Source: Candidatus Nitrosopumilus sp.
GTDB taxonomy: Archaea; Thermoproteota; Nitrososphaeria; Nitrososphaerales; Nitrosopumilaceae
DNA length: 46,382 nucleotides
Direction: 5' to 3'
NCBI GenBank assembly: GCA_029881195.1
Contig: JAOUNB010000005.1
Coordinates: forward strand, 1 to 46,382
How positions within the stretch are numbered: the first letter of the stretch is position 1; every line of letters begins with the position of its first letter. The notes under the pieces are model-generated. The model was given only the letters and a program-made list of their open reading frames with translations, did not search any database and had not been told where the DNA came from. This document shows, one piece after another, positions 20,970 through 42,247 of the stretch. The position numbers were made by a program, and so were the translations under genes.

Positions 20970-22007
20970 TTACATCTTTGGATCAAGACCTTTAACCAAT
21001 CTTAATGCATCAGCTAGACCATCAGCATACCCAATGCTCAAAATTGCTACCTCATCTTGACCATCTTCTAGAAATCTTTCTGCATCCTTAATGTATAATT
21101 CTACATTTTCTAAAATAACTTGAAATTCTTTTTGATCTTTATAATGAGGTTCAATTTCTTCTAATGCTTCTCTAACCATTGGAACATATTTTTCCATCAT
21201 TTGAATTGAAATTTTCTTTGTATTTTCAGAATTATCAAAAGGTTCATCAATACATTTACCTAATATCTTTAATGCATCTGATTCTGTAAAATGCAATTTT
21301 CCTGGAATTATTACAGTATGTGGTGGTTTTCCAAAATCTTTTTTCTTTAGACTAGAAATTTTTCCTGACATAATTAATTGATCTTTGAATCCTATTCTTG
21401 ATGCAATTATTGCATAGCTATCTACACTAATGACATTTCTTTTTTGACCTTTCTCTGTTTCTAACAATCTATTTAATGCCTCTTTTGGATCTAAGAAAAA
21501 ATCATTGTCTTGATTATACTCTAAAAGAAGAACTGTGTGATTACCGTCAATAATATTTTTATAAATTACGTAATATGGAGTTGTAAGTGATTTCATTTCA
21601 CTCATTATTGTAGCAATTCTTCCAACTTTGTAAAAATGTAAACCACATTCTCCAATCATTGATGTAAGAGATGATGAAGCATGAATGGAATATGTTTTAA
21701 TTTTTTCTTCAATTGCTCTTGTTCTTAATTCAATGTGTGTTGTTGCAATATATGGATCTCCATATGAGAGTAAAACTACTTTCTTCTTTTTTGCATTTTT
21801 TAGAATCTCGTTTCCATCTTCAACAAGCCATCTTTTTGCCGGTTTGAATTCTCCCTTTGTGGTATTTTTGATTTTAATCAAATCTGATTTTTTAATCGGA
21901 CTAGTAAACTGTTCTAAGTATACAATGTCTGCATTTGATAAAACCTCTAATGCCTCAATGGGAATTGATTTGAATCCCGAAATTCCTAAACCTACAAATC
22001 CAAGCAT
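20970..22007 (-). CDS. dphB: Diphthine synthase
   Basis: MLGFVGLGISGFKSIPIEALEVLSNADIVYLEQFTSP; VVLLSYGDPYIATTH; HASSSLTSMIGECGLHFYKVGR. Confidence 0.9.
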   Translation of the reverse strand: MLGFVGLGISGFKSIPIEALEVLSNADIVYLEQFTSPIKKSDLIKIKNTTKGEFKPAKRWLVEDGNEILKNAKKKKVVLLSYGDPYIATTHIELRTRAIEEKIKTYSIHASSSLTSMIGECGLHFYKVGRIATIMSEMKSLTTPYYVIYKNIIDGNHTVLLLEYNQDNDFFLDPKEALNRLLETEKGQKRNVISVDSYAIIASRIGFKDQLIMSGKISSLKKKDFGKPPHTVIIPGKLHFTESDALKILGKCIDEPFDNSENTKKISIQMMEKYVPMVREALEEIEPHYKDQKEFQVILENVELYIKDAERFLEDGQDEVAILSIGYADGLADALRLVKGLDPKM

Positions 22008-23131
22008 TATTGCATCTTTCTATCGTGAAGTCTTTTTAAATGCTGTAAAGTTTTCTTTAAGATTTCTATTCCTTTTAGGTATTCTTCAATGGATACTTTT
22101 TCATCAATGGTATGTGCTTCATGGGGATCTCCTGGACCATATGTGACAACAGGAATTGCCCATTGATTTCCTAAAACATTCATGTCTCCAGTACCTGTTT
22201 TTCTGATTAGTGTTGCTCTTGATTGTGTTTCTTCTAAAATACCTAATGTCAATGCTCTAACTAGTGGTGAATTATGAGGTGCCTCAAATGGTTCTGTCTC
22301 ATCAAGAATTGAATAAAATGCCTCTACCTGTCTTTTTTGAGAAATTTCTTTCACTAATGTTGCAATCTTTTGCTCAATTGTTTTACAATTCATATCTACA
22401 GGAATTCTAATGTCAAAAGTTGTTTCACATTCCTTTGGTGTAATATTATGGCTGGTACCTCCTCTAATTTCTGTCATTGATGAAGTTAACAGCATTCCTT
22501 TGGATCTATCTTCCTGATTTTCTTCTAACCTTTCTTTGAGTTCTCTTGCAAAAATCATTGATTCATGAATAGCATTTTTTGAAAGCCACGGTGCACTTGC
22601 ATGTGAGCTGTCATTTACACTGATTTTGAGATTAATAGCTAGTCTCCCTTTATATGCAATTGTTACTTGGTTTATTCCGCTGGGCTCTCCAAAAATTGCA
22701 TAATCAATTCCGATTTCTTTTTTAACAAGATTTTTAATTCCTGTTGCATTTCCTTCTTCATCAACGGCTCCAACAAAAATTATAGTTCCATTGTTATTTT
22801 GAATTGATGCTGCAGCAAATAACATTGCCATCAATGGTGCTTTTGCATCTGATGCTCCTCTCCCATAAAGTAAATCCCCTTCTTTTCGAACTTTGACTTT
22901 TCCTGGTACTACATCCATGTGACCACATAACATTATTTTTGGAGATCCTGTACCTTTCTTTGCAATAACATTTCCAACTTCATCAATTTCGATATCTTCA
23001 AATCCTAAGTCATCACATTTGTCAGCTAAAAATTCTGCTAATGGTTTTTCACTGAGTGATGGTGTGTAGAGTCTAAGCGCTTTCTCTAACATCTTTACTG
23101 CAAATCTTGATTCTGATAGATGGTTGGCCAA
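22007..23131 (-). CDS. lysK: LysW-lysine/ornithine hydrolase (M20 family)
   Basis: MLCGHMDVVPG, YGRGASDAKAPL, VDEEGNATG; located in lysW-lysX-lysK order. Confidence 0.9.
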   Translation of the reverse strand: MANHLSESRFAVKMLEKALRLYTPSLSEKPLAEFLADKCDDLGFEDIEIDEVGNVIAKKGTGSPKIMLCGHMDVVPGKVKVRKEGDLLYGRGASDAKAPLMAMLFAAASIQNNNGTIIFVGAVDEEGNATGIKNLVKKEIGIDYAIFGEPSGINQVTIAYKGRLAINLKISVNDSSHASAPWLSKNAIHESMIFARELKERLEENQEDRSKGMLLTSSMTEIRGGTSHNITPKECETTFDIRIPVDMNCKTIEQKIATLVKEISQKRQVEAFYSILDETEPFEAPHNSPLVRALTLGILEETQSRATLIRKTGTGDMNVLGNQWAIPVVTYGPGDPHEAHTIDEKVSIEEYLKGIEILKKTLQHLKRLHDRKMQ

Positions 23132-23134
23132 TTC

Positions 23135-23977
23135 TTATTTTTCTATATTTAGGGCATAATTTAGCATTAATGATGGAATGTCTATTTCGCAAACTCTAAC
23201 TGTATTTTTGTATTCTGTGGTGTTATTTACTTCGTGCACGACCAATCCTTTTTCATCACTTTCCATCAAATCCACACCTACAATGTCTCCTTGAACTGCA
23301 TTTTTTGCCTTTATGCACATCTCTTCCATTTCTGATGTAATCTTGCATGGCTCTGCTTCTCCACCAAGCGCCATGTTTGTTTTCCAATGTTTTGATTTTC
23401 TGTATATTGCAGCAACTATTTTCTCTCCTACCATTATTGCTCTAATGTCTCTTGGTGGTCTTTTTACAAACTCTTCTAGATAGTGTATTTGATAAATTGG
23501 ATACATATTTTCTCTACTTTCGATAATACCTTCAGCTGAATCTCTATCATTAAGTTTTGAGATTAGTCTTCCCCAACTTCCTACGGTGGGTTTGATAACT
23601 TTGGGAAATCCTTGTGTATCTAATGCTTCCAATGCTGCTTCTTTTGAAAAAGCTACCGTTGCATCTGGTGTTGGAACACCAAATTTCTTAAGTAACATAT
23701 GTGTAAATAATTTATTTCCTGCAAAAATACCTGTGTTTAAACAATTAATTACTTTGATTCCTAATCCTTCAAGAGCTGCAGTTGAATGTAAGTTTCTGTA
23801 ATAGCTTACACATCTTTGAATAACTACTCCATAATCTTCAGGTTTTTTTTCTAAATTTAGCGCTATTTTCTTGCAATCAACCATCTGGATATTGATGTTG
23901 TTTTTTTTACCTGCTTCTAGTAAGGCTTTTTCTTCCCAACGGATGGTATCGTAAAGAATTGTAACGTCAGGATTCAC
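23135..23977 (-). CDS. lysX: LysW ligase, RimK/ATP-grasp family (LysX)
   Basis: ATP-grasp, GFPKVIKPTVGSWGRLISK, VHEVNNTTEYKN; likely GTG start overlapping lysW stop (CAGTGA). Confidence 0.88.
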   Translation of the reverse strand: MNPDVTILYDTIRWEEKALLEAGKKNNINIQMVDCKKIALNLEKKPEDYGVVIQRCVSYYRNLHSTAALEGLGIKVINCLNTGIFAGNKLFTHMLLKKFGVPTPDATVAFSKEAALEALDTQGFPKVIKPTVGSWGRLISKLNDRDSAEGIIESRENMYPIYQIHYLEEFVKRPPRDIRAIMVGEKIVAAIYRKSKHWKTNMALGGEAEPCKITSEMEEMCIKAKNAVQGDIVGVDLMESDEKGLVVHEVNNTTEYKNTVRVCEIDIPSLMLNYALNIEK

Positions 23978-24141
23978 TGTCCCCAATCCTCGCCAACCGT
24001 TTGGGCAGGCTTTAGTTGGAAACCATCTGAACTCTTTTCTAATTCAAAACTTGCGCCACATTCCGGACATGTTACAATTTCTCCCTCAAGTGCATCACTT
24101 GGGATAGATATTTCTGCATCACATTCTTCACATTTTGACAT
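23974..24141 (-). CDS. lysW: Amino-group carrier protein LysW with C-terminal Gln (…EDWGQ)
   Basis: MSKCEECDAEISIPSDALEGEIVTCPECGASFELE...VGEDWGQ-stop; last codons GGA CAG TGA. Confidence 0.92.
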   Translation of the reverse strand: MSKCEECDAEISIPSDALEGEIVTCPECGASFELEKSSDGFQLKPAQTVGEDWGQ

Positions 24142-24161: not shown

Positions 24162-24185
24162 CTTTATTTATCATTAATTATCTTT
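24162..24185. repeat. Left copy of 24-bp direct repeat flanking the island (candidate att site)
   Basis: CTTTATTTATCATTAATTATCTTT; differs at 1 of 24 positions from 36477-36500. Confidence 0.85.
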
Positions 24186-24743
24186 GCCGCTATATTTTTG
24201 CTGTTCATATTGTTAATCACAATAATTTTATAATTTCTTGCCCAAGCGGGTTTTCTAACTTCTCTTGTGTAATTGCATTATTAAAACTTGGTTATGTTGA
24301 GGACAATATTCTGATTTATTGTGATAATGACGTTAAACTAAATTATTTGAACTCTCAAGAGGTTTTGTAATCTCAGTTCAGGGTCTGCAAAATCTGGGTC
24401 AAAATTTGAGTTATGTTTCTAGATTCAACAGAGTGGGATGCTGGGAGGTAGATTGGAACGCGATAATTAGGAACCGTTTACTGATTCAAATTTGAATTTT
24501 AATTGAAATATCGAAATATTGCAAAAGTCCAGATCTAAATTTCTAGATACAACAGGCTCTTTCCCAGTTGCCACAGCTTGTCTTTTTGAAGTATGACTTG
24601 GTCACTATAATCTCGTGAATATGCATTTGGAATTACTATATCAAATGTCATACTAAGTGTGGTTAATATGATTACAAACAATTACAGGTAAATCTTATCT
24701 TTTTCATAAAGAATGATTATGGTTTGTTTAAAAGGAAAATAGA

Positions 24744-25004
24744 TCATGCAGCTAATAACACGCTGATCTTTCGTATTGGGTGATGTGAGATATCTTTGTG
24801 GATGATAGATATTGGCTCTTTGGTAAATATCATATCACATCGGTAACATTTCCAGGCAGTTGTGGTTTGCAATACGATACCATTACAAAATATGAATAAA
24901 AACAAGACGTATGATTCGTTCATACAAATCATCAGTGAGTCATGTGATAATATAGAGCATTTTCTCATGGAATAATAATTGGAATTGGGCCAAAAGATAC
25001 CCAA
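24744..25004 (-). CDS. Small C2H2-like zinc-finger protein (only the C-terminal ~43 aa convincing)
   Basis: WKCYRCDMIFTKEPISIIHKDISHHPIRKI: C-x2-C-x12-H spacing; likely a shorter protein from an internal TTG start. Confidence 0.5.
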   Translation of the reverse strand: MGIFWPNSNYYSMRKCSILSHDSLMICMNESYVLFLFIFCNGIVLQTTTAWKCYRCDMIFTKEPISIIHKDISHHPIRKISVLLAA

Positions 25005-25185
25005 TTCCGTTGTGGGACGTAATTACTATGGTCTGGTAAATAATTGATGACTCCCGCAGAATTACAAATTATACTATTACAAAATTTGTATAAAAGACAA
25101 ACTGATGATTCATCAGTGTGATCTAAATACTAGTAAGATAATAGTTGTATTGATCAAGATACTTGGGGCTGTCACCAGACAACTG

Positions 25186-25392
25186 CTAGTTGTTGGCCTT
25201 AAGCTCCAAAACTATTACTTTCTTCTTTGTGTTTGTATGGAGAATGATTTGTTTCTCATCAGTCCAGTTTAATTTTGTAATTATCTCATGAGGAATGTTT
25301 GCTCTATATTGTACATTTGTGGTTGTACTATCCTTTCCAAGATATGTTCTGTGTTGTAGTTTGATTGGTTTCAACAAAGTATAACTTTTCAA
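25186..25392 (-). CDS. AbrB/SpoVT-like DNA-binding protein
   Basis: QYRANIPHEIITKLNWTDEKQIILHTNTKKKVIVLE resembles the swapped-hairpin AbrB pattern. Confidence 0.6.
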   Translation of the reverse strand: MKSYTLLKPIKLQHRTYLGKDSTTTNVQYRANIPHEIITKLNWTDEKQIILHTNTKKKVIVLELKANN

Positions 25393-25441
25393 AATAATAA
25401 AAAAGAGGAAATTTCAGATTGGCAAAAAAATTACTGAAATC

Positions 25442-26146
25442 TTACTCAAACCCTAGTTTTTTGCAGATTTTTTCTCCTTCTTTGGTTGGTTCTAGGAGCA
25501 TCTTAAAGTAGGGTGCCTTGTGGCCTGGTCTGTCCTCCACATCTCCGTGGGCTGCCGAAAATATCTGGCTATCACATAATAATGCTAGATTTTCAGTTAA
25601 TGTGTGAGAGTTGTCAGGCTCACCATACGATAGATTCTCATCTTCGTCAGTCCATATTCCTTGTATGACTCCTTGAACTGGCTTGATGAACACATCAGAG
25701 TCATCAAAGTTGGGCTCTCTGAATACATTTAGTTGATGCGGTCCCTGTGGATTATCTTGCGTCCCAAGGGTATTTTTATGGATGTGCAGCTGATTTACGT
25801 CATCTGCTGTACTTCCGTTGTCATCAATTAACTGCATACCAGATATGTTGATCTTGTACTTTAGTGCCGTTCCCTTGTTGTCTAACCATGCTCTCATCTT
25901 GCAGTCCAACAAGTCAAGACTCTCTTGTGACAGATTGTTTTTGGCAAAATCTGTCACAATGCATTGATCAGATACAAAGCTTGGTTTTTTGGCAAATCTT
26001 CTTTCAGATTCCTCTGTCGTTTGTGCATCACTTTTGTCTTTATCATCATTTTCTGCTATAGCTTGTGGGATTTCTCCCATTAAAATTAACGACGCTGAAA
26101 GAATCGTTGCTAGAGATATTGCAAAGAACAGTATTGTATTTTTCAT
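25442..26146 (-). CDS. Secreted protein, possibly CHRD-like
   Basis: N-terminal signal sequence; 'LKYKINISGMQLI...LHIHKN...GPHQLNVF' pattern. ATG at 26146 preferred. Confidence 0.6.
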   Translation of the reverse strand: MKNTILFFAISLATILSASLILMGEIPQAIAENDDKDKSDAQTTEESERRFAKKPSFVSDQCIVTDFAKNNLSQESLDLLDCKMRAWLDNKGTALKYKINISGMQLIDDNGSTADDVNQLHIHKNTLGTQDNPQGPHQLNVFREPNFDDSDVFIKPVQGVIQGIWTDEDENLSYGEPDNSHTLTENLALLCDSQIFSAAHGDVEDRPGHKAPYFKMLLEPTKEGEKICKKLGFE

Positions 26147-26274
26147 CAACAAATAATATCATTTATTTAATAAAACAGATTTGGTGTATTTGTAGAATGT
26201 ACCAGACATTCTTGCAGATAGCTTGAAAATAATCTTATTACAAGTATTCAAAATAAAAAAAGAATTAGACGTGC

Positions 26275-26919
26275 TTAATTGTCTTTTTTGTCCTTGTCTT
26301 GTTTGTTGTCTTTGTCATTGAAGCTGCTTGAATGATGTCCCTTCATTGGGAATCTGAGATCATTAATGTCTTCAACACAACCATAACTTCCAGCAAATCC
26401 TGCACTGTTGAATTTGGCACCGTCATTGCAAAATGTAGTAAAGTCCACTGGATAGGACACACCATCAAAATATTTCACATTACCATATATGTGGTATCCA
26501 TAGATTCCAGGCTCCACCAATTGTCTTACAGTATAAGATCCAGGTGAACCAAATATGCCAGATACTGGAATGTTTGTCTCAACATATTTTGCATCTATTG
26601 CAGAATCTGCCTTGTCTACTTGCTTTACATCTTCAAAGTAGTATCTATCCAAGGTCAGCTGGGCACCTGAAATAGGAAGTTTTGTATCCTTGTCGCGTAT
26701 TCTAATATCGACATCATGCTTTCCGTCATGTGTTCCAGACTCATTTCCAAATGTGGGCTCACTTGTGTGGCCTACTACCAACTGAAATGTTCTGGACTCG
26801 CCATTTGACAAGGTAATCGTTTTGTCGTATGTGCCATGTGCAAATGCATCATGTACAGACATTGTGGATATTACTGCAACTGCTGCAATCACACTGAGTA
26901 CTAGAGTGACGTTTCTCAT
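26275..26919 (-). CDS. Secreted protein, unknown function, charged C-terminus
   Basis: Signal peptide (…SVHDAFAHG), Lys/Asp-rich tail; directly follows the 26920-27594 CDS. Confidence 0.7.
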   Translation of the reverse strand: MRNVTLVLSVIAAVAVISTMSVHDAFAHGTYDKTITLSNGESRTFQLVVGHTSEPTFGNESGTHDGKHDVDIRIRDKDTKLPISGAQLTLDRYYFEDVKQVDKADSAIDAKYVETNIPVSGIFGSPGSYTVRQLVEPGIYGYHIYGNVKYFDGVSYPVDFTTFCNDGAKFNSAGFAGSYGCVEDINDLRFPMKGHHSSSFNDKDNKQDKDKKDN

Positions 26920-27594
26920 CTAGGAACCTCCAGTCTGCGATGAATGGCCCAATCCGTCATTTGTGGTATCGCTATCATTTAGATCATAGATAGGATTGTA
27001 GGAACCATTTTCATCTTCCAGTTTTACGGTTGGTCCTCCAGTGTATTTGTCACTTGCAATGCTTCCAAGTACCTGTTGTATGTTAACATCGACCACATCT
27101 CCAGGACTGAATGTTATTGGCTCTCCTGATAGATTGATTAGATCAATGTCAGTTACTCGTGGAGCACCGCCATTTAGGGGGTCTGGAATGTGTGAGTGCC
27201 AAATACAGCTGTTAGGTGCATCAGAGACTGCAGCTATGTAAAACAATGGAATTTTTTCCATATGTGTAGCTGCATTGTGCTCATCGACATGGCCTGCGAC
27301 CACAGTTACGGTGGGTCTCATTGTATCATCACCATCAGATACTGGAGCACATGGAGCCTTTAGTAGGAAATGACCAGCAACATAGTTTGGACTTGCGTCA
27401 TATAATGGGAATGTGGTACCTGGTTGTAAGGTCATCCCGTCCAGTCGTATGTGTGTGTTGTCTGGCAATGCTCCTGCAGAGACTCCCGTCTCAAAGCTGT
27501 GACTTGCAAAGACAGTTCCTCCAAATACCAGTGTCACAGTAAGTAATGCAACACCTGCAATTATTGGAATGTTTTTCTGTTTTAGAAATGTCAT
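26920..27594 (-). CDS. Secreted protein, unknown function
   Basis: Signal sequence MTFLKQKNIPIIAGVALLTVTLVFGGTVFASHS; internal ATG at 27594 better than the listed 27669 start. Confidence 0.7.
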   Translation of the reverse strand: MTFLKQKNIPIIAGVALLTVTLVFGGTVFASHSFETGVSAGALPDNTHIRLDGMTLQPGTTFPLYDASPNYVAGHFLLKAPCAPVSDGDDTMRPTVTVVAGHVDEHNAATHMEKIPLFYIAAVSDAPNSCIWHSHIPDPLNGGAPRVTDIDLINLSGEPITFSPGDVVDVNIQQVLGSIASDKYTGGPTVKLEDENGSYNPIYDLNDSDTTNDGLGHSSQTGGS

Positions 27595-27771
27595 TAGAAA
27601 ATAATTTTGATGTGTGTTAAAAACAAAATTGGTACATTTGTAATATGTACTGGTACAATAATACAACAATTAAGAAAAGATTCTCTAGTAATTGATGATG
27701 ATACACGTCGAGTCTTTTCCATTCTCAACAACAAGATTGTGCTGTAAGTTTCACCTACAAATTTATCAAAG

Positions 27772-28506
27772 TTAATTGGTTTTACTTACAACACAATTCA
27801 TTGTTTCATTATTCCAAGCGTTTCCATTTTGTTTGCATTCTAATATTTTTGGTTGTAATTGCATCATAAAATTAAATTTCATCTCAGAAAACTTTTCAAA
27901 ATCACAGTTTTTTACAGACCATGAATATTCGTCACGATCTAAGGTATCACATGTGGTGGTTATACTTGCAAATGACCATTGCTCATCTTTTAGGTCAGCT
28001 AATGCCTCTATTTTACAGTCAGAAGTTACCCTCAAGCTTCTATAGTCAGGATCTCCTTCTGTAGTGTATATTTCAGGATCGACAAAAGCATGAAGACATT
28101 TAGAAAATGCTTCTTTGAAACATTCGTATTCTTGATAAGGATTTGATTGATTGTTGCAGTCTATTCTGTAATGGTTAAAGGTTGTTTTGGACACAGTAAG
28201 AATGGACCATTCACGTAAAAGTAGATTATATCTTGTTTCAGTTTTTACACATGCAGGAGAGCCGTCATATTTTTGTAGTGGGTAAAGTCCATCTTTGCAA
28301 ATAATGTCTGTTGCCAAAACTCCTGACTTGAATTGTTTTAGTGGGGATTCAATTATTGGACGCAGCCCCTTCTCATCAATTTCATCCCCAATTTCAACTT
28401 GGATTGTAGAGTTATTTTTGCCTGCTGTATGTTCTGCTGCATAAGCTGATGAGGTAACACCAAGTCCAGTAATAACAACAAACAAAATCATGATAAAATA
28501 TTTCAT
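27772..28506 (-). CDS. Secreted protein, unknown function, Cys-rich
   Basis: MKYFIMILFVVITGLGVTSSAYAAEH signal peptide; several Cys in the mature part. Confidence 0.7.
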   Translation of the reverse strand: MKYFIMILFVVITGLGVTSSAYAAEHTAGKNNSTIQVEIGDEIDEKGLRPIIESPLKQFKSGVLATDIICKDGLYPLQKYDGSPACVKTETRYNLLLREWSILTVSKTTFNHYRIDCNNQSNPYQEYECFKEAFSKCLHAFVDPEIYTTEGDPDYRSLRVTSDCKIEALADLKDEQWSFASITTTCDTLDRDEYSWSVKNCDFEKFSEMKFNFMMQLQPKILECKQNGNAWNNETMNCVVSKTN

Positions 28507-28698
28507 AATATGACTGGACTATACAAGAAGTTCATAAAGAATTCTATACAATGCCAATATCATCCCTCGTTAGATTAGTCAGTCTCAATATCACGGACAA
28601 ATCATTTATCAATTCTGAATATTATGAGAATTTTCTCACAAAATAATGTGATATAATATCATCACATATGATTCCAAAGAAATACAAAAACAGAAAAT

Positions 28699-29340
28699 CT
28701 AGGATCCTGTAGAATACATTGCATTACCAGTACGTGATGGAACCGAAGGGAATCTGTTACCTATCTGAGTTTCAGCAACTGCTGCAGCCTCACTCAATAT
28801 AGCATCAGTCTCTTGTGATGACAATCCATCATTGCCAAAGGAATAATCCCCGTCTAATGTACCAGGCATCATATCTCCAAGCATGTTGCCCATTGATTCT
28901 AGCTCTTGGCTTGCCTGAGGAATTATTTTGTTCATTACAGGACCAATTGCTTTCATGGTATGCATTGCAGGTTGCATTGATACAATTGCATCTCCTAGAG
29001 TGCTTACAGTAGATAGTCTTAGCTGTGTCCTGTCTACTGCAGTTCTCATATTTCCCACAATCTTGTTTGTCTTTCTGATTTGTGCAAGCTCGTTTGCCAG
29101 CACTTTGGCTGTGCGCATATCCTTATTTTTTTGAGCCTCTACAATTCTCTGAAATAATCTATCATCCTTTTGATTTAACTGGTTGGAAGTATTGTCTAAT
29201 TTTGATATCGGTTTATTCAAACCTCTTATTGCATGCTCTACACGCGGTTTTAATGGGGCTTCTTTTTTGAACATGCCTGAAACCTTGTCTCCAAGTCCAT
29301 CAGATGGAGGTCTGTTCCATGCTTGTCCAAAAGTGGCCAT
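28699..29340 (-). CDS. CdvB-family (ESCRT-III/Snf7-like) protein without an obvious C-terminal winged helix
   Basis: LKPRVEHAIRGLNKPISKLDNTSNQLNQKDDRLFQRIVEAQKNKDMRTAKVLANELAQIRK...; helical Snf7 core and flexible tail. Confidence 0.85.
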   Translation of the reverse strand: MATFGQAWNRPPSDGLGDKVSGMFKKEAPLKPRVEHAIRGLNKPISKLDNTSNQLNQKDDRLFQRIVEAQKNKDMRTAKVLANELAQIRKTNKIVGNMRTAVDRTQLRLSTVSTLGDAIVSMQPAMHTMKAIGPVMNKIIPQASQELESMGNMLGDMMPGTLDGDYSFGNDGLSSQETDAILSEAAAVAETQIGNRFPSVPSRTGNAMYSTGS

Positions 29341-29594
29341 ATGATATGATATGAAAAATTCTAACTTATCAGACCAAGTTGAATTTAATGAACAAATTTG
29401 ATCGTTTTTCTATGTTTGATTTCAGTCATAGAGTTTTAGAGGGAGAATTTTTCCTTATTCTTTTTTTATTTTTCTGATATGACATAGAAGAAAAGTCAAT
29501 CCATTGCCAAACAAGCGCCCCTATCTTTACCCCAGCATAACGTGTATGGGGATATAGTTAGGGTGTATTTTATCAGACCCATGTGGATAAAAAA

Positions 29595-32003
29595 CTAGGT
29601 GTTAATTGCTTTGATCTCAATTGCATTGCGTTTCCAAATAAGACTGACAGATAGAGCAACAAGGTAAACTACAATTCCAATCAACATTGCGTAAGACCCA
29701 CCATAAACTATGCTCAGGACTACTGTTAGGACTGCTCCTAGTACTGAGAATCCTCCGTTGATTGCCCACATCCAAGGAACAAATGTGGGAATGTGTGATT
29801 TTAGCAGCCTCATTCCAGTTGGCATAGGCATTCCCATGAGAAAACCTATGGGAAACAAGAGTCCGATGCTTATTGCTGCCTTTGTTGCAAACGACTCAGA
29901 TATCACTGAATAGATTAACGGTGTTAACATGCTGGCATAGATTAAACCCAAGACGGCTATTCCAGATATCACAAATATTAGATTTTTTGTGTTTAATCGG
30001 ATTAATCTCGAACTAACTAGGCTTCCAATTCCGCTTGACAGCAGTATTGTAAATAGCAATAACGCAAAGGTCATGGTAGGATTACCCAGAAACAAAATCA
30101 ATTTTTGCAATAAAGCCAATTCAATTAGTATAAACCCAAACCCCAGTGCAGCAAAATAAATTACAATACCTTTTGTTGCCAGAGTGCTGTTATTTTTTAC
30201 ATTTGGGTCATTGCTTTTTCTCAACCAAATGTACGGACCAACAAGAAAGATTGCTGCAATTCCCACACTAACATACAACAGCTGCTCTAGTATGTGAGGA
30301 AATGGTTTTTCAAATGAAAGAAAATAAGGACTATCGTCGGTTACAGGATGCGCCTTTGTTGGAAACAACGCATAGAACTCGTCAAGAGTCATTTCTTCGT
30401 TTAGTAGTTTAGAGTACGGCTCAACCATTACATGTCCAGGAATCAATATTGGCTTGTAGCCATTCTTTAGAAATTCGCTTGTGAAAAATTCTATCTCACT
30501 ATTGGTGAATGCCTTTTTTGATAATATCGACATGGTTACACTAGGATCTTTTTCTATGGATTCAGAGCTGACTATAATGATATGTTTGTACGCATCCTTT
30601 TGAGGAATTCCATTATTTTCCAACAGAGTGACAAATGTGGATACAAATCTAGGCGTGTCAATCAACCACCGTACTGTGACAATCTTGCCCCTGTCTGTAA
30701 GATGGTCATAGTATTCTTGGAATCCCTCAACTGTATACAGAAAATTTTCAGAGACTCCAAGACCTCCAGAAGATACAGATGCCCAAGTATCTACAAATGG
30801 AATGTAAATTATGTCATATTTGTCAACTGAACGCGAAACAAAGCTTCTTCCTTCATCCACATTTGCATCAACGTATGGATGAGTATACACATTGCCAGTT
30901 TTGTTACCATAGCTTTTCACTGTATCAAATATTATCGGATTCAATTCAACTGAAGTGACATCAGTAATCCCGCTGGTTACTGCTGCAATGACGTCTCTTC
31001 CCCCACCAGAACCTATGATGAGTGCCTTTGGATCATCCATCATGGTAAAAGGAAGATATTGCAACCATGATGAAAGCTCCTGTCTGCTACTAGGTGAGCC
31101 ATTCCATGATATTATATTGGTGCCTGCACCTCCATCGATGAAAATTTTTGCGACAAGGCCCTCACCTGCACATTGTGGTTGTCCAAATATAGGATCTGGT
31201 ACATTAGGGTCACAGTTACTTGTCGGTCCTTCAACTACATCAATTCTTGAAAAGGAGTTCCATTGGGTTTTGACTATGTGTGTTCCAGGATTCTCCCTGA
31301 GAAAGATTGGCAGGTCCTTTTGAGCCCGAGAATCAGTAGGAATGGAAAATGTTTGACTGACTTCATTTATTCCCAGCAAGGATGTTGCAAGTGCAACTAC
31401 TGCCAGTGAAATCAAAATTTGTTTTTTGTTTTTTGATGCAGCCGAGAAGATAATTGCACATACAGAGGATATAACACCTACAAGGAGAAGAGTTCCCTCT
31501 CCTCCAAGAATGCTCAACAGCAATACAACAGATACTGCGCCTATGGATGCACCTATCAGATCAGATGCATAAAGTCTCCCCGCAACATGTGCAAATGCAC
31601 TAAACGCTGCAGAAATTATTATTCCTATAAAGAAAAAAGGAATTGAGAAAAGTAGCATAAACAATGGAAGATATGTTATGTCCGATGCCAAGACATGCAT
31701 TACAAATAAGGAAAGAGGTAAGATAAGCACAATTCCTATCGAGGAAGCAATAGTGAGATTATTAGCCCAATTATCCTTGATCTTTTTTAATCTGTAATGC
31801 ACCAACAGTCCAGATGCCCCAAGTCCTATCAGTGCCACAGATACTGCAACAAACGCAAAGTGATACCAAATTGCAGCAGAAAAGATTCTAGTCAGAGCTA
31901 TTTCCAGAACAAGTCCAGATAGTGATGCAAGAAAGATGCCTACAAACAGCAATCGACGGTTTATTGATGATGGAACAAGTCCTTGAGATGAGGCCAAGTG
32001 CAA
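29595..32003 (-). CDS. Multi-TM protein with spermidine-synthase-like domain
   Basis: N-terminal TM segments, central ALIIGSGGGRDVIAAVTSGITDVTSVELNPII, C-terminal TM segments. Confidence 0.82.
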   Translation of the reverse strand: MHLASSQGLVPSSINRRLLFVGIFLASLSGLVLEIALTRIFSAAIWYHFAFVAVSVALIGLGASGLLVHYRLKKIKDNWANNLTIASSIGIVLILPLSLFVMHVLASDITYLPLFMLLFSIPFFFIGIIISAAFSAFAHVAGRLYASDLIGASIGAVSVVLLLSILGGEGTLLLVGVISSVCAIIFSAASKNKKQILISLAVVALATSLLGINEVSQTFSIPTDSRAQKDLPIFLRENPGTHIVKTQWNSFSRIDVVEGPTSNCDPNVPDPIFGQPQCAGEGLVAKIFIDGGAGTNIISWNGSPSSRQELSSWLQYLPFTMMDDPKALIIGSGGGRDVIAAVTSGITDVTSVELNPIIFDTVKSYGNKTGNVYTHPYVDANVDEGRSFVSRSVDKYDIIYIPFVDTWASVSSGGLGVSENFLYTVEGFQEYYDHLTDRGKIVTVRWLIDTPRFVSTFVTLLENNGIPQKDAYKHIIIVSSESIEKDPSVTMSILSKKAFTNSEIEFFTSEFLKNGYKPILIPGHVMVEPYSKLLNEEMTLDEFYALFPTKAHPVTDDSPYFLSFEKPFPHILEQLLYVSVGIAAIFLVGPYIWLRKSNDPNVKNNSTLATKGIVIYFAALGFGFILIELALLQKLILFLGNPTMTFALLLFTILLSSGIGSLVSSRLIRLNTKNLIFVISGIAVLGLIYASMLTPLIYSVISESFATKAAISIGLLFPIGFLMGMPMPTGMRLLKSHIPTFVPWMWAINGGFSVLGAVLTVVLSIVYGGSYAMLIGIVVYLVALSVSLIWKRNAIEIKAINT

Positions 32004-32196
32004 ACTATCTAAAATGTCAGTATATTACTTTTTCAACTATTGTTAATAACATGTCAAAAAGCGATAATGTTAGAGTAGGTTTTATTTTCTAATCAAATGC
32101 AATTGGTTCTAATAATCTCAATATCATGTATGTCTTTCGGGAACCATATAGTAATGATTATTCCATAATCATCATTATCATCTATGCGGTTTACCA

Positions 32197-32439
32197 TCAT
32201 GCCGTTTCTGACACTCCTTGTGTTGCTGATTCTACTCTTACCTCAATCATGTCATCACCCATTTTTTCGAATCTTGTGATCCTGTATCTTTTGTGATTCA
32301 TCTTAATTGTCCCATCAACTGGATGCAGTGGATTGTCTCCCTCAAAGACTTCGGCAAAAGAACGGTTTGTCAATAGAACATTCAAGAGTGTGTCTTTGTC
32401 TTTCTCACGATTGTTATTGTACCATATGAGATACTTCAT
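32197..32439 (-). CDS. Small hypothetical protein
   Basis: 80 aa; start overlaps the stop of the upstream Zn-ribbon CDS, suggesting a two-gene operon. Confidence 0.5.
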   Translation of the reverse strand: MKYLIWYNNNREKDKDTLLNVLLTNRSFAEVFEGDNPLHPVDGTIKMNHKRYRITRFEKMGDDMIEVRVESATQGVSETA

Positions 32440-32690
32440 AGTTCATCGGGTCTCCGACACACTTCTTTGATTCTCACCTTGACATTGCCATAGTTTGACT
32501 CGACATACTCTTTCGGATCCTTGACATACTGTACGTCTCTCACCTGATTGCAACATCTAGGACAGACTCCTTTCTTGAACGGCAGTTCATTTTGCCCGCA
32601 ATGTGGACATGCCTTATAATCCTGAAACATTCCGGCTTTTGTAAAAATTCTGTATGTCGGGATTACTTTTGGTTTTAATTTTTGATTCAT
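32436..32690 (-). CDS. Small zinc-ribbon protein
   Basis: CPHCGQNELPFKKGVCPRCC. Confidence 0.65.
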   Translation of the reverse strand: MNQKLKPKVIPTYRIFTKAGMFQDYKACPHCGQNELPFKKGVCPRCCNQVRDVQYVKDPKEYVESNYGNVKVRIKEVCRRPDEL

Positions 32691-32702
32691 GGGAATAATA
32701 TG

Positions 32703-32770
32703 AAATAATTTCTTTTAATATTCCCGATTGCAACACCATGCAATCAATGTGATTAACATGTATTGCATTT
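32703..32770. repeat. Promoter-region repeat, copy A
   Basis: About 60/68 identical to 33464-33531; immediately upstream of the 32690 start codon. Confidence 0.85.
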
Positions 32771-32866
32771 ACAATAGCCAAGTGTCAGAATTCCAACCCT
32801 GTATGCTTCTACTTTTTTGTTGATTTTAGCTGTTAAGGATCAATCAAAAAAAAAGAAAAAGAAGTG

Positions 32867-33451
32867 CTAGCATGTAGGCACAGGAGGGTTGATTCCTATG
32901 GGGTTTCCTGCAACTGTTCCCTCACAGCTAAAGAAATTCCCTCGATTTAGGAACTCATCATGATTGTGTATCGTGCCCAAATTGTAGAACGTATTGTTAC
33001 TGCTCATCTTGAAGTGGTTGTCAATCACACCTGAGTTTATCATTGTATTTTGGTTGCTAAATCCACATCTTTTACACTCTAGTGTTCCGTCATTTACAAT
33101 GACTCCATTGTTTATCACCTTACCATTGGATGAAGTACCCCATCCATTGACAACCATAGTTGCAGACCCGTCAATGACTATTGCACCATCGTTTACGAAT
33201 TTGCCAATGATTATCCATGTTACTCCGTCTGAAACTCTGATTTTTCCATCAAATGTATTTTCAGATGAGGTGCATGTGCCATCTGCCCAAATCCCATCAA
33301 ACAGATTCTCACATGTAGTTGGATCCAACACAATCCAGTCAGACTCAACAACTGCATCAATCTGTTGCTGTCCTATGAGTGAACTGATTAACAACAATCC
33401 TGCAATGATGCTGGCAGTCTTTGTTGTCATCTTTGTTGTTTTTTGGTTCAT
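32867..33451 (-). CDS. Secreted protein of unknown function
   Basis: Signal sequence (ASIIAGLLLISSLIGQQQIDA); Gly/Asn/Val-rich beta-repeat-like sequence (NNGVIVNDGTLECKRCGFSNQNTMINSGVIDNH). Confidence 0.65.
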   Translation of the reverse strand: MNQKTTKMTTKTASIIAGLLLISSLIGQQQIDAVVESDWIVLDPTTCENLFDGIWADGTCTSSENTFDGKIRVSDGVTWIIIGKFVNDGAIVIDGSATMVVNGWGTSSNGKVINNGVIVNDGTLECKRCGFSNQNTMINSGVIDNHFKMSSNNTFYNLGTIHNHDEFLNRGNFFSCEGTVAGNPIGINPPVPTC

Positions 33452-33463
33452 AGACACATTCTC

Positions 33464-33531
33464 AAATAATCTCTTTTAGCATTCCCGATTGCAATACCAT
33501 GTAATCAATGTCATTGACATGTATTGCATGT
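33464..33531. repeat. Promoter-region repeat, copy B
   Basis: See 32703-32770; upstream of the 33451 start and shared with the divergent 33590 gene. Confidence 0.85.
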
Positions 33532-33589
33532 TATTGACATGCATCTATTTGAAATCATTAAGTATCAAATAATTTTATCATATTGTACA

Positions 33590-34105
33590 ATGAGTGAAGA
33601 GCAAAGAGAGCAGATAACTGCAAGACCTCTCAAGGAAACAATCCAGAAACTCACAGAAGGCGCCAAAAAGAGAAACCTTCATCCTGCAACATATTACGCG
33701 ATGATACTTGACAAGGCAGCAAAACTGGAAACCAAAGACGGTTCAATAATTGTAGACAAGTCAATCCTCAAAGACACGTATTCTGACTCTAGAAAAGTAG
33801 AAGAGACCGCAAAAGAGCAGGCTGAGAAAAAATTTGAGGAATGGAGCATATCTGATGAACCAGTAACCCTTGAAAACTATGAGAGAAGGCTGCGGGAATG
33901 GTGTGCACTAAACTCCATGAACGTCAAGGTAACAAATGACACAGAATCAATCACATATGAGGTAAATCATGGAATCGACAAGATATGGTCAAGGTTCCAG
34001 TGTTTGATGAACATGGGCATATTTGAACTCATGAATAAAACAGTAAAGAATCATGAGATGAGAAAACTTTCCTGGTCAATCACCGTATCAAAGCCGCCTG
34101 TGTAA
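33590..34105 (+). CDS. Hypothetical protein, possible regulator
   Basis: 172 aa starting MSEEQREQITARPLKET; divergent from the secreted-protein gene. Confidence 0.6.
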   Translation: MSEEQREQITARPLKETIQKLTEGAKKRNLHPATYYAMILDKAAKLETKDGSIIVDKSILKDTYSDSRKVEETAKEQAEKKFEEWSISDEPVTLENYERRLREWCALNSMNVKVTNDTESITYEVNHGIDKIWSRFQCLMNMGIFELMNKTVKNHEMRKLSWSITVSKPPV

Positions 34106-34107
34106 AT

Positions 34108-34323
34108 CTAAATTCTCTTTATCTCTAGTTTTTCCAACAGTCTTCTTCTAGTTTCAGTGCCACGAGGTTTAGTTCTTAACACGTAATCACAACATGGACA
34201 GTACTTGCCGTCCCAATGAATAAAGATTTCACAATTGGTACACCATTTCTGACCTGAGGCATACCTGCTGCTTGTTCCAGGCTTTTTTGCCTTGTATCTG
34301 TGACATACTCCATTGCAGACCAT
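34108..34323 (-). CDS. Small zinc-ribbon protein
   Basis: CNGVC ... WCTNCEIFIHWDGKYCPCC. Confidence 0.65.
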   Translation of the reverse strand: MVCNGVCHRYKAKKPGTSSRYASGQKWCTNCEIFIHWDGKYCPCCDYVLRTKPRGTETRRRLLEKLEIKRI

Positions 34324-34461
34324 TTCATCAAAAAATCTAAAAGTATATTATAAAATGATTGAGGAATTTACTAAGGTTGATTTAAGATAGTCAAAATACG
34401 TCAAGCGATCAAAAATTAATTTTCACACTTTGGGCTAAATCCAAATGAATCATCATATCAT

Positions 34462-34662
34462 ATGAAACAAAAACAATCATTACAAGAAATAACAACAATA
34501 CAAGAAAAGCCAATCCAGGACAGATTAAGACAAGCAAGCTGCATCACAGTAGAGTCTGCCCAGAGAAACAAGGTAAACCTCAACGTTTCTTGGTACGATG
34601 TTCACGGTCAGGAACAGAATCAGAAATATTCAATTTCAACTGGTTCAATCATAGAATTTTAG
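34462..34662 (+). CDS. Small hypothetical protein
   Basis: 66 aa ORF followed by a T-rich terminator-like stretch. Confidence 0.5.
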   Translation: MKQKQSLQEITTIQEKPIQDRLRQASCITVESAQRNKVNLNVSWYDVHGQEQNQKYSISTGSIIEF

Positions 34663-34885
34663 AGAAATTTTTTCCTATTCTTTTATTATTTTTTTTGATA
34701 TATTTTACTAGAAAAGCCCTATCAATTGCCAAAATAATCTATACTGTTTTTTGATATTCCTTTTGAAATACTTTGATTAAACCACCAAAATAATCTGTCT
34801 TCGTTAGTATGACCAATAATATATAGAAGGATGATTATGATAAGAGAAGAATCATTTTACAGTTTTAATTCTATTCCTTTAAAGT

Positions 34886-35968
34886 CTAAGGGTTTTGAAT
34901 GATTAATGATTCTAGATAATTCTTACGTTGTTCTACATTTGTGTAATTAGGATTTAACTCAAGTGCTCTGTCATAAGCTTGTATAGCTTCCTCATGTTTA
35001 CCTAGCATCTCTAGAGAAATCCCTTTGTAAGCGAACATATTTTCATTTGTAGGATCTATCTGAATAGCTCTGTCATAAGATTGTATAGCTTCCTCATGTT
35101 TGTCAATCTCTGCAAGAGAATATGCTTTGTTAAACCATAGATTTGCATTATCTGGACTTAGATTCAGTGGTTTGTCCGAATATTGTATATATTTGTCATA
35201 AGCTTGTATAGCTTCCTCATGTTTGTCAATCTTTGCAAGGGCGGCCCCTTTATTAGCCCAAGTAGTCGTATGCTCTGAATCTATCTCAAGTGCTCTGTCA
35301 TAATCTTGTATAGCTTCCTCATGTCTATCTAAATTCAGCAAAACATGTGCCTTCTGAGATAAAATATCAAAATTTTCTGAATCTATCTCAAGTGCTCTGT
35401 CATAAGCTTGTATAGCTTCCTCATTTTTATCTAAAACCTCAAGTATACGTCCCTTACCAACCCAGGCAAGATGTTCATCAGGGTCAATCTCAATGGCTTT
35501 ATCAAAATGTTGTATAGCTTGATCATATTTGCCTAAATTAGCTAAAGACATTCCTTTACTGATCCAATCATCATATGTTGCATTGATCTCAAACTCTAAA
35601 TTCTCTTTTTTATCTGTAGCAATATCTTTCATCCACTTTGAAGGATTGAATATGTCTCCTTTAGCATCTTTATTATCTTCAATAAGTTCATCATATCTTT
35701 CAATAGTTTCTTCCGGTGTTTCAAAGATTTTTGTTGTTTCATCATAGAACTCAAACAATCCAGAATAAAACAAGAAAGTAATGAAGGATGCAACTACAAC
35801 AGCTATTATTACAAGTACTATAATTGCCAGGCCCTTTGAATACACATTATCCATAAAGTCTGAAGTTTTTGGAGTTGGGTGTTTAAGTTCTTCCTGTAAT
35901 CTTCGTCTTTCGTCATCTCGAAGCTCTCGTAAAATACGTTCCTCGTCTTCTTTATCGCGTGGAAACAT
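34886..35968 (-). CDS. Membrane-anchored TPR protein
   Basis: N-terminal TM helix; six or more repeats of 'KHEEAIQAYDRALEIDP' type. Confidence 0.88.
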   Translation of the reverse strand: MFPRDKEDEERILRELRDDERRRLQEELKHPTPKTSDFMDNVYSKGLAIIVLVIIAVVVASFITFLFYSGLFEFYDETTKIFETPEETIERYDELIEDNKDAKGDIFNPSKWMKDIATDKKENLEFEINATYDDWISKGMSLANLGKYDQAIQHFDKAIEIDPDEHLAWVGKGRILEVLDKNEEAIQAYDRALEIDSENFDILSQKAHVLLNLDRHEEAIQDYDRALEIDSEHTTTWANKGAALAKIDKHEEAIQAYDKYIQYSDKPLNLSPDNANLWFNKAYSLAEIDKHEEAIQSYDRAIQIDPTNENMFAYKGISLEMLGKHEEAIQAYDRALELNPNYTNVEQRKNYLESLIIQNP

Positions 35969-36176
35969 ATTGAATAGATGGTAAATTAGTAATTAAAAAT
36001 TTAGAATTTATCACAAATTGAGATTTCCAATATTCTTCTCATTTTCAACCACTAATCTTGGCTTTTCTATTTTAGAAGTATATCTTAACCATAACTATGA
36101 TATTGACCAGTTCATTCTCTGAAATCTTTTTTCTATACTCTTGAAATCAATATCCTGTTGTTTTTTGCTTCAATCT

Positions 36177-36440
36177 TTACCTGAAGGGTCTCATCCCAAC
36201 TTTGACTCCTCTATCTACCATCTCATCTATGTAGTCTTCAAACATCTCGTCAATCTTTTGAGTTTCCATTTGTGCCAATTTGTCATAATCTTTAATGTTG
36301 TGAAATTCCATGAATGCACGCAAGAACTTGACATAGGTTATCTTGGTTGAGTCGCGTGATATTCCACGTATGAAATTTCTAAATGAACGGTGTCTTTTGG
36401 ATGTCTCTTTTGAGTATTCTAAAACTGTTTTACCAATCAA
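36177..36440 (-). pseudogene. Integrase-like fragment: N-terminal SAM-like core-binding domain of a tyrosine recombinase
   Basis: RNFIRGISRDSTKITYVKFLRAFMEFHNIKDYDKLAQMETQKIDEMFEDYIDEMVDRG; stops where a catalytic domain should begin; 37 bp from the right repeat. Confidence 0.5.
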
Positions 36441-36476
36441 TAATTAATGAAACAGGTCGATAACATTTAAGCCATA

Positions 36477-36500
36477 CTTTATTTGTCATTAATTATCTTT
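36477..36500. repeat. Right copy of 24-bp direct repeat flanking the island (candidate att site)
   Basis: CTTTATTTGTCATTAATTATCTTT, the 3' end of the 36479-37663 gene. Confidence 0.85.
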
Positions 36501-37663
36501 TTTTCAAGTCTATCTTCAAGTGGTATTTCGATAAGATCCCCCATTCTGAGTCCCTTTAATCCAGCTGCTACTGCTTTTGCACTCTCATCATCTTTCTCAA
36601 GACCTAATAATGACATCAAATAGGCAGCACCTGTCTTTCCTGCAAGCTCACCGAAGACAATTCTTCTCCTATTTCCAACCGCTCTAGGTGGTATGGGTTC
36701 ATATGCTGCTGGGTTTCTGAGAATGGCAGCAAGATGTGTTCCTGCTTTATGTTTATATGCTGATGAACCAACAATTGGTTTTGAGTCATACGGTTTGATC
36801 GTTGTATATTCTTCAATCAATCTTGAAAGATCTAGTAGCATGTCCAATCTGAAATCATTTGGTGATTTGTATAGGTATGTCAATGCAACTGCTACTTCTG
36901 CAAGAGGTGGAATTCCTGTTCGTTCCCCAATTCCATCAATAGTAGTGTGAATCTGATCAACTCCTGCATCACATGCTGAAAATGCATTTGCTACTGCAAA
37001 TCCAATATCATTATGAACATGTGCATCTAATGGAACATCTACAACTTCTCTTACCTTCTTAACAAAATTATGCATTCCAATTGGACGCAATATTCCAACT
37101 GTATCTGGAAGACTGATTCTATCCACCCCAGCTTCTTCAATCGCTTTACAAACTTTGATTAAAAATTCAGGTTCTGCTCTACTTCCATCCTCAACTGTAA
37201 ATCTGATTTTTAGACCATGAGATTTTGCATACTCTACTGTTTCGACTGATCTTCTTAGAGCCTCTTCTCTTGAAATACGTAATTTGTCTTTTAGATGAAT
37301 ATCTGAAATTCCTAGATATGCTGCACACCATTTAGCATCACAATCTAATGATGTGTCAATATCTTCTTTTAGTGCACGTCCATGAGAAACAATATCTGCC
37401 TTCAATCCTTGCTTAATTATTGTTTTAGTAGCTTCTTTGTGATCATTTGAAACAACTGGTGATATTTCAATTTGATCTACTCCAAAATAATCTAACATCC
37501 ATGCAATCTGTATTCTTTGTTTGTTGGTAAATGATACGCCTGGATGTTGTTCTCCTTCTCTTAGAGTACTATCTAATACTCTTATCTTCTTTGGATTTTT
37601 GTCATATGCGTTGTAGATATTTGCATAATGATTCGGATCTTTCATTACTGAAATCGTTGACAT
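36479..37663 (-). CDS. Homocitrate synthase / isopropylmalate synthase family
   Basis: RVLDSTLREGEQHPGVSFTNKQRIQIA; LPDTVGILRP; DAHVHNDIGFAVANA. Confidence 0.9.
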   Translation of the reverse strand: MSTISVMKDPNHYANIYNAYDKNPKKIRVLDSTLREGEQHPGVSFTNKQRIQIAWMLDYFGVDQIEISPVVSNDHKEATKTIIKQGLKADIVSHGRALKEDIDTSLDCDAKWCAAYLGISDIHLKDKLRISREEALRRSVETVEYAKSHGLKIRFTVEDGSRAEPEFLIKVCKAIEEAGVDRISLPDTVGILRPIGMHNFVKKVREVVDVPLDAHVHNDIGFAVANAFSACDAGVDQIHTTIDGIGERTGIPPLAEVAVALTYLYKSPNDFRLDMLLDLSRLIEEYTTIKPYDSKPIVGSSAYKHKAGTHLAAILRNPAAYEPIPPRAVGNRRRIVFGELAGKTGAAYLMSLLGLEKDDESAKAVAAGLKGLRMGDLIEIPLEDRLEKKIINDK

Positions 37664-37761: not shown

Positions 37762-38202
37762 TTAGGCTATTTGTCTCAAAATTATCACAGTATTTGTATC
37801 AACCACACCTGGAATCTTCCTCAATGCGTCGATGGTACTGTTAATTTCTGCAATATTCGTTGCACTCATAATTGTTGTAATGTCATATTGACCAGTTATT
37901 TCATAAACTGTTTTCACTCCTTCTAATTTTGCAAGCTTCATAGATACTTTTGACGTGTCTGTAGCAGAATCCACTGAAACTAAAACAATTGCACTTGTTG
38001 CATTTTCCTCACCGATCTCCAACGTAAATTTTTTGATCGTTCCACTATCTACGAGATTTTTTACTCGTCTCCTAACTGCTGATTCTGAAAGCTTTAATTT
38101 TTTACCAATATCTACAAACGACTCTCTAGCATCTTCTTTTAAATATCCGATAATTTTTTCGTCTATTTTATCTTTGTACAACTTTTTTTTGCTCCTCTTC
38201 AC
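37762..38202 (-). CDS. Lrp/AsnC family regulator
   Basis: IDEKIIGYLKEDARESFVDIGKKLKLSESAVRRRVKNLVDSGTIKKF; RAM-like C-terminus. TTG at 38181 possible start. Confidence 0.9.
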   Translation of the reverse strand: MKRSKKKLYKDKIDEKIIGYLKEDARESFVDIGKKLKLSESAVRRRVKNLVDSGTIKKFTLEIGEENATSAIVLVSVDSATDTSKVSMKLAKLEGVKTVYEITGQYDITTIMSATNIAEINSTIDALRKIPGVVDTNTVIILRQIA

Positions 38203-39355
38203 TAAGTACAGAATCTAGAGCATGTAAAACTTTTGTTATATCTTCTTCAGAAATCACTAGTGGTGGAAGAATTCGTAGAATATTTCTTCCAGAATATAGC
38301 ATCAAAACACCTTTTTTCATCAATCCCATTAGTATGTCTCTGACTTCAAACTTCATCTCTATTCCTATCATTAATCCTTTACCACGAATTTCTCTAATCA
38401 TGTTGTGGTTTTCTTTTAGTTTCTCTAAACCTTCTCTGAATATTTTTCCCATTTTTTCAGCATTTTCTATTAATCCATCTTCTGTCAATGCTTTGAGTGC
38501 TGCAGTTCCTGCTGCACATGATAGTGGATTTCCTCCAAATGTTGAAGAATGTTCTCCTTTACTCATTGACGCAAGTATATCTGATCTTACAAGTGTTGCC
38601 CCCATTGGAACACCTCCTGCAATTCCTTTTGCAAGACACAAAATATCTGGTACTGTATTCCAATGTTCACATGCCCATAATCGTCCTGTTCTTCCTAAAC
38701 CAGCTTGTATTTCGTCAAAAATTAACAAAATTCCTTTTTCATCACAAAGTTTTCGTACATCCTGCAAAAAACCATCTGGTGCTACAATAATTCCACTTTC
38801 ACCTTGTATTGGTTCTAAAATCACAAATGCTGTGTCATCATTAACTACAGAGCGAAGAGACTCAATGTCTCCAAAAGATGCAAAAGAAACTTTCTCTACT
38901 AATGGCTCAAATGCTTTTTTATATTTTGGATTAAATGTTAATGATAATGCACCAAATGATTTGCCATGATAGGAACCTTTCATTGCAACCATTCCTTTTT
39001 TACCGGTAAATTTTCTTGCAAACTTTATTGCAGCTTCAATTGCTTCTGCACCACTATTGTTTAAATGAACTTGCGTCAGTCCCTTAGGGGCTAATCCGAT
39101 TAATGTTTTTAAAAATTCTTCTCTTGTTTTATTGTATAGCGAACTGTGAACCGTAATGATTTTATCAACCTGTTCTTTGATTGCTTTATTGACTCTTTGA
39201 TTTTGATGACCTACTAATGCAACTCCGTACCCGCCCATACAATCAATGTATTCTTTTCCGTCTGCATCCCATACATGTGATCCTTTTCCTTTTTCAACTA
39301 TAACTGGAAATCTCTGGTAGAGATTTCCCATAAATTGATCTTCACTCATGTTCAA
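38168..39355 (-). CDS. argD: Acetylornithine/LysW-aminoadipate semialdehyde aminotransferase
   Basis: PLP class III: LNNSGAEAIEAAIKFARKFTGKKGMVAMKGSYHGKSFGAL, IFDEIQAGLGRTG. Confidence 0.9.
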   Translation of the reverse strand: MNMSEDQFMGNLYQRFPVIVEKGKGSHVWDADGKEYIDCMGGYGVALVGHQNQRVNKAIKEQVDKIITVHSSLYNKTREEFLKTLIGLAPKGLTQVHLNNSGAEAIEAAIKFARKFTGKKGMVAMKGSYHGKSFGALSLTFNPKYKKAFEPLVEKVSFASFGDIESLRSVVNDDTAFVILEPIQGESGIIVAPDGFLQDVRKLCDEKGILLIFDEIQAGLGRTGRLWACEHWNTVPDILCLAKGIAGGVPMGATLVRSDILASMSKGEHSSTFGGNPLSCAAGTAALKALTEDGLIENAEKMGKIFREGLEKLKENHNMIREIRGKGLMIGIEMKFEVRDILMGLMKKGVLMLYSGRNILRILPPLVISEEDITKVLHALDSVLSEEEQKKVVQR

Positions 39356-42080: not shown

Positions 42081-42247
42081 TACTCTCCCCAGTCTTCGCC
42101 TACGCTTTCTGCTTGTTTAAGCTCAACATTTGATCCGTCTTTTTTAGAGATTTCAAAGTCGGCACCACAATCAGGACAGGAGACAATTTCTCCAACTGAG
42201 GCATCATCTGGGATGTTTAATGTTGCATCACATTCTGGACAGTTCAT
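42080..42247 (-). CDS. lysW: Amino-group carrier protein LysW (second copy, …EDWGE); absent from ORF track
   Basis: MNCPECDATLNIPDDASVGEIVSCPDCGADFEISKKDGSNVELKQAESVGEDWGE; overlaps argG stop (ATGA) and argX start (TAATG). Confidence 0.95.
   Translation of the reverse strand: MNCPECDATLNIPDDASVGEIVSCPDCGADFEISKKDGSNVELKQAESVGEDWGE

Follow-up and report, generated by a model that had tools for sequence, protein, structure and literature searches.

LysW genes and their neighbours

The window, i.e., the whole 46,382-nucleotide stretch of Candidatus Nitrosopumilus sp. DNA that was analysed, holds the only two LysW genes of its source genome (1.59 Mb, 143 contigs, 99% complete). The first, lysW copy a (23974..24141, minus strand), is linked to lysX, runs from an ATG at 24141 to a TGA stop at 23976-23974, and encodes a protein of 55 amino acids, MSKCEECDAEISIPSDALEGEIVTCPECGASFELEKSSDGFQLKPAQTVGEDWGQ. 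Its final codons are GAG GAT TGG GGA CAG TGA, with the C-terminal Gln encoded by CAG at 23977..23979 (minus strand). The second, lysW copy b (42080..42247, minus strand), is linked to argG and also exceeds the NF041070 cut-off. Reading the minus strand confirmed both endings given in the original prediction, EDWGQ (GGA CAG TGA) for copy a and EDWGE (GAG TAA, reading from 42247 to 42080) for copy b.

Copy a was compared with the LysW/ArgW family (NF041070, TIGR01206, PF21344; PDB 3vpb, 3wwl, 5k2m). It scores 90.2 bits against NF041070, the archaeal LysW model (cut-off 75), and 47.8 bits against PF21344 (cut-off 27), and it shares the zinc-ribbon body, the acidic tail and the EDWG motif, including four zinc-binding Cys residues in two CxxC pairs (CEEC and CPEC). 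It also lies in the same operon setting, adjoining a LysX-type ligase with the GSWGR motif and accompanied by lysK, argB, argC and argD. It departs from the family in the encoded C-terminal Glu, as it ends in EDWGQ whereas Glu is the last residue of all three LysW relatives with solved structures. In the members studied, LysX joins the amino group of the substrate to the gamma-carboxyl of this terminal Glu, which is the attachment site in Thermus, Sulfolobus and Natrinema; a Natrinema argW(E54A) strain, altered at the ligation site Glu54, is an arginine auxotroph, and EDWGE is treated as the defining end of LysW (PMC10433800).

Downstream of copy a lie lysX and then lysK. The lysX copy a (23135..23977, minus strand) encodes a RimK-type ATP-grasp ligase (TIGR02144, 326 bits; 3vpd, E 2e-63) with an intact GSWGR motif and, in the substrate-motif region, HWKTN, which is close to HWITN of Thermus LysX. 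Its GTG start overlaps the lysW stop. The lysK gene (22007..23131, minus strand) encodes a [LysW]-lysine/ornithine hydrolase of the M20 metallopeptidase type (TIGR01902, over cut-off; 5xoy, a [LysW]-lysine hydrolase, E 5e-51), which is also our candidate deamidase (see below).

The cluster with the Glu-ending copy has the order argG-lysW-lysX/argX-argC-argB-argD-lysM-homocitrate synthase-like gene, all on the minus strand. Its argG (42244..43443) was assigned on the basis of its place in the cluster and of the known sequence of ArgG, and an orthologue adjoins lysW copy b in relatives. It is followed by lysX copy b (41223..42080; TIGR02144, 294 bits; matches to 3vpd, 5k2m and 3vpb), argC/lysY (40148..41194; TIGR01850), argB/lysZ for the [LysW]-aminoadipate/glutamate kinase (39342..40145; NF010662), the aminotransferase gene argD/lysJ (38168..39355; TIGR00707, over cut-off), lysM for an Lrp-type regulator (37762..38202; NF040947, over cut-off), and a homocitrate/isopropylmalate synthase-like gene (36479..37663), which in relatives is directly upstream of lysW copy a. 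The ArgX-like lysX copy b has GFKTN at the substrate motif, matching the Gly-Phe described there for Sulfolobus ArgX (PMC10433800). These motif letters suggest aminoadipate as the substrate for copy a and glutamate for copy b.

An insertion of 12.3 kb (24186..36476) separates lysW copy a from the rest of the cluster. It is missing in three relatives (G083, G175, G148), and a 24-bp direct repeat lies on either side of it (24162-24185 and 36477-36500; 23/24 identical). The right copy of the repeat forms the 3' end of the homocitrate synthase-like gene, which looks like integration at a gene end. No integrase was recognised. Among the proteins encoded on the insertion are a Snf7/CdvB-like protein, a TPR protein and a membrane protein resembling spermine synthase. 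Elsewhere in the window, a small Toprim-domain protein (12166-12543, minus strand) is encoded between glutamate-dehydrogenase-like and amidotransferase-like genes.

Conservation and switching of the C-terminal residue

An EDWG-Gln-stop pattern was present in 219/250 Nitrosopumilaceae genomes, including 126/131 of high quality, and in 22/22 genera; the reversed pattern, used as a control, matched 0/250. Gln was the ending of the lysX-linked LysW in an initial set of 29 relatives (belonging to the genus of the window and a sister genus), and also in genomes sampled from the remaining Nitrosopumilaceae genera. A sequencing or assembly error at CAG was rejected, as CAG or CAA stands at the same place in those 219 genomes. 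We also considered whether the overlap of the two genes, in which the GTG start of lysX takes in the final G of CAG plus the stop codon, forces the Gln. It does not, because GAG TGA gives an identical overlap and occurs in relatives.

The 12-kb insertion is real, and the original prediction had offered a carrier that lost function when the operon was split as one explanation. This was not upheld: relatives with contiguous, insertion-free clusters have a 100%-identical LysW with the same Gln, the zinc ligands and EDWG are intact in copy a, and there are 26 genomes (below) in which only a Gln-ending carrier is encoded. The insertion was accordingly rejected as the source of the Gln. Considering also the spread of Gln over the family, we regard error or decay as practically discounted.

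Five genomes from the window's own genus (G148, G149, G114, G169 and G161) carry Glu at the end of this very gene, among unchanged neighbours, and Gln is thus conserved yet able to revert. In G005, a closed genome of 3.2 Mb from the same family, the Gln-type lysW is lost, and what remains is a single Glu-type lysW together with both lysX genes; this locus (G005:C1:1771000-1784500) is the mirror image of the Nitrosocosmicus arrangement described below. One genome of the window's genus (G141, 90% complete) gave no LysW and no strong LysX match, from either loss or an assembly gap.

Across the order and class, LysW endings come in every pairing (Gln/Glu, Glu/Gln, Gln/Gln and Glu/Glu) and as a single Gln, in a survey that took in Nitrosocosmicus (Gln), Nitrososphaera, Nitrosopolaris, Nitrosocaldus, Nitrosothermus (both Glu), Nitrosopelagicus, Nitrosotalea and Nitrosarchaeum. 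Elsewhere in the phylum, groups f27, f32, f50 and f53 have Gln endings. Glu occurs in sister genera, and both endings were seen within a single genus (G471, Gln; G436, Glu). The Gln-ending proteins read in these four groups are genuine LysW beside a LysX-type ligase, and those of f27, f32 and f53 also adjoin other lysine/arginine genes. For G381, the single f26 match, LysW was not confirmed within the stretch read. The reversed-pattern control gave 3 matches in the 398 genomes of this search. A second EDWG-Gln match in G288 (C1:1952672-1952689) is followed by TGG instead of a stop, with no LysW read, and was taken as chance. The suggestion that the lysX-linked copy is consistently Gln-ending thus holds for most of the family, but gives way in the five same-genus genomes with Glu and, elsewhere, in switching of both copies.

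Overall, 245 distinct LysW were read with an expression that permits any last residues after Trp (LysW without an EDW motif would escape it), and they comprised 133 ending in Gln, 112 in Glu and 0 in any other residue; as the Gln pattern had served in part to select the wider set, 133:112 is not a frequency. Gln is encoded by both CAG and CAA. Because more than half of these otherwise typical LysW, in a sample partly enriched for Gln, share the ending, copy a was filed as a variant of a known family, one that is recurrent and apparently unreported. On a tree of 191 adjacent ligases, a proxy for the 55-residue carrier that was built quickly and has some long branches, the label changes at least 15 times, with 11 changes forced by well-supported branches. 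A further change, in the other LysW copy of g21 (G244 and G245 Gln, G246 Glu), lies outside this tree. For an unconstrained site, the chance of staying confined to Glu and Gln over 11 changes is about 5e-10 when each change is given the most generous share, 1/7. Given this confinement and the absence of other residues among the 245, the site accepts Glu or Gln, with nothing else seen, and the two are interchangeable over evolution at the LysW terminus.

Genomes with only a Gln-ending carrier

The Glu motif was searched for in 31 genomes, of which 26 carry the Gln motif and lack any EDWG-Glu-stop. These 26 are at least 93% complete and come from the f3 AOA, g21, f27, f32 and f50. In the closed Nitrosocosmicus-type genomes among them, both lysX genes are kept with one LysW only, which is Gln-ending and beside lysX-lysK. 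The cluster there reads argG-lysXb-argC-argB-argD-lysM-homocitrate synthase-lysW(Gln)-lysXa-lysK, and the gene for the Glu carrier is gone. With two ligases and one LysW, the single Gln-ending carrier must therefore serve both.

Ammonia oxidisers of these genera grow on mineral medium, and they must therefore make lysine and arginine. Both ligases are intact in the AOA genomes checked, and the releasing hydrolase LysK is intact in the Gln-only genomes as a whole. Since 26 genomes have only Gln-ending LysW while ligases and LysK remain intact, the Gln-ending carrier must work.

Alternatively, the Gln copy could be a regulatory or structural partner (e.g., a decoy or an activator of the ligase), with only the Glu copy being charged. 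This would fit the window and most Nitrosopumilaceae, where a Glu copy is also present. However, the 26 genomes, which include organisms with complete arginine/lysine clusters, argue strongly against it, and in the five same-genus genomes noted above the same copy ends in Glu. It is hard to see a Gln-ending LysW as nothing but a regulator or a relic, and we consider a partner role very unlikely.

Ligase, hydrolase and a probable deamidation

If the Gln-ending LysW works, either the Gln is converted to Glu or the attachment chemistry differs. The catalytic residues and the GSWGR motif are near-invariant in the LysX partners of both Gln- and Glu-ending carriers, and no LysX column separates the two sets of partners. 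A compensating LysX substitution was rejected, as at most 3/10 contrasts (one Gln row was used twice) agree at any column and the changes are conservative. As no LysX column tracks the carrier residue, the carrier either arrives at the ligase as Glu or meets a ligase that is indifferent to the difference.

The first of these was considered the probable explanation, i.e., that Gln-ended LysW is deamidated to Glu before charging, by whichever route. The product of lysW copy a would be a functional amino-group carrier made as a Gln-ended pro-form, with the side-chain amide hydrolysed once (LysW-Gln + H2O -> LysW-Glu + NH3), and LysX/ArgX would then ligate aminoadipate or glutamate to the new gamma-carboxyl as usual. 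A pro-form needing a deamidase was among the options of the original prediction, and it is the one that the evidence favours, although as a step that we infer.

LysK is the best candidate for the deamidase. Its normal reaction is the hydrolysis of a gamma-glutamyl amide at exactly this residue, and the terminal Gln would present the same bond as its substrate, with ammonia as the leaving group. LysK exceeds its curated cut-off (TIGR01902) in 18/18 genomes tested, and its metal and catalytic residues are near-invariant across 102 sequences. Its known role is the release of Lys and Orn, and it may depend on an amino-acid leaving group. From these analogies we propose LysK only tentatively, as a possibility somewhat short of an even one. 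The first step could alternatively be taken by a separate cellular amidase or by slow spontaneous deamidation. No gene tracking the Gln state was found in comparisons narrower than genome-wide gene content. A deamidase gene inside the cluster was rejected, as there is no amidase-type Pfam domain among ten unassigned neighbouring ORFs, whose domains are argininosuccinate lyase, FAA hydrolase, SurE, ATP-synthase E subunit, CobW-like, thiolase, ATPase and FBPase.

The main rival to deamidation is charging without it, with the amino acid placed on the alpha-carboxyl of the C-terminal residue, for which Glu and Gln would be equivalent. LysX belongs to the same ATP-grasp family (TIGR00768) as RimK, the ribosomal protein S6 glutamate ligase, and RimK adds to the alpha-carboxyl. 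A ligase blind to the side chain would also fit the switching between Glu and Gln with no matching change in LysX. There is no obvious reason for such a ligase to restrict the site to these two residues, though side-chain shape alone could account for it. Against alpha-carboxyl attachment, the ligases here retain the GSWGR motif and the catalytic residues, and LysX differs from RimK in using the gamma-carboxyl of Glu wherever it has been studied, i.e., in Thermus, Sulfolobus and Natrinema (PMC10433800). It is disfavoured only by this known gamma linkage of relatives, and we consider it rather unlikely.

Direct use of the amide, by transglutaminase-like transamidation or by ATP-dependent activation of the amide oxygen, would expel ammonia with no free Glu intermediate, and Dop has been proposed to phosphorylate the amide oxygen of PupQ (PMC8599861). 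However, once LysK has released its product the carrier ends in Glu, so that any round after the first would need the ATP-grasp route, and no transglutaminase-type domain was present among the cluster ORFs checked. Direct use was judged highly improbable.

Comparison with Pup and implications

Deamidation of LysW would have a precedent in Pup, which likewise ends in Glu or Gln depending on lineage. Pup is ligated via the gamma-carboxyl, and Dop both breaks the isopeptide bond and deamidates PupQ, the form with Gln (PMC8599861). A LysK performing both release and deamidation would parallel Dop acting on Pup and PupQ, with the deamidation half of this parallel drawn by analogy. The carriers themselves are unrelated: Pup is a disordered protein tag with a GG-E/Q end, whereas LysW is a zinc ribbon with an EDWG-E/Q end that carries small amino acids and is not a protein tag. 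A PafA/Dop homologue (Pup_ligase family, PF03136) was found in 0/16 genomes, while the Corynebacterium glutamicum control was detected, and LysW is therefore at best a functional analogue of Pup and lies outside that system. Taken broadly, LysW may be a second, unrelated carrier system that uses Glu or deamidated Gln, with LysK doubling as deamidase in the way of Dop and the Glu/Gln switch being recurrent and near-neutral in archaeal lysine and arginine synthesis; we put this forward as a conjecture that is less probable than deamidation as such.

The string EDWGQ, or a Gln-ending LysW, was not found in the literature searched, which included few subscription journals, and the SCM1 metabolic model simply assigns LysW. 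The original prediction had allowed that Gln-ending carriers might prove widespread and already explained. They are widespread, in 219/250 genomes of the family and beyond it, but no explanation was found in that literature.

The C-terminal Glu of LysW has been taken as the chemical heart of the pathway, which E54A abolishes in Natrinema. Many archaea, including most ammonia oxidisers, have Gln at this position, and some have no Glu copy. This cautions against using EDWGE to decide whether a carrier is active, or reading a Gln ending as the sign of a dead copy. That Gln-ended LysW occurs without any Glu copy suggests, by analogy with the bacterial tag Pup, that the Gln is first converted to Glu, which would be an independent parallel to Pup and Dop. 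In either case, Gln at this position implies that a core amino-acid pathway of these archaea includes a maturation step not yet recognised or an attachment chemistry of another kind.
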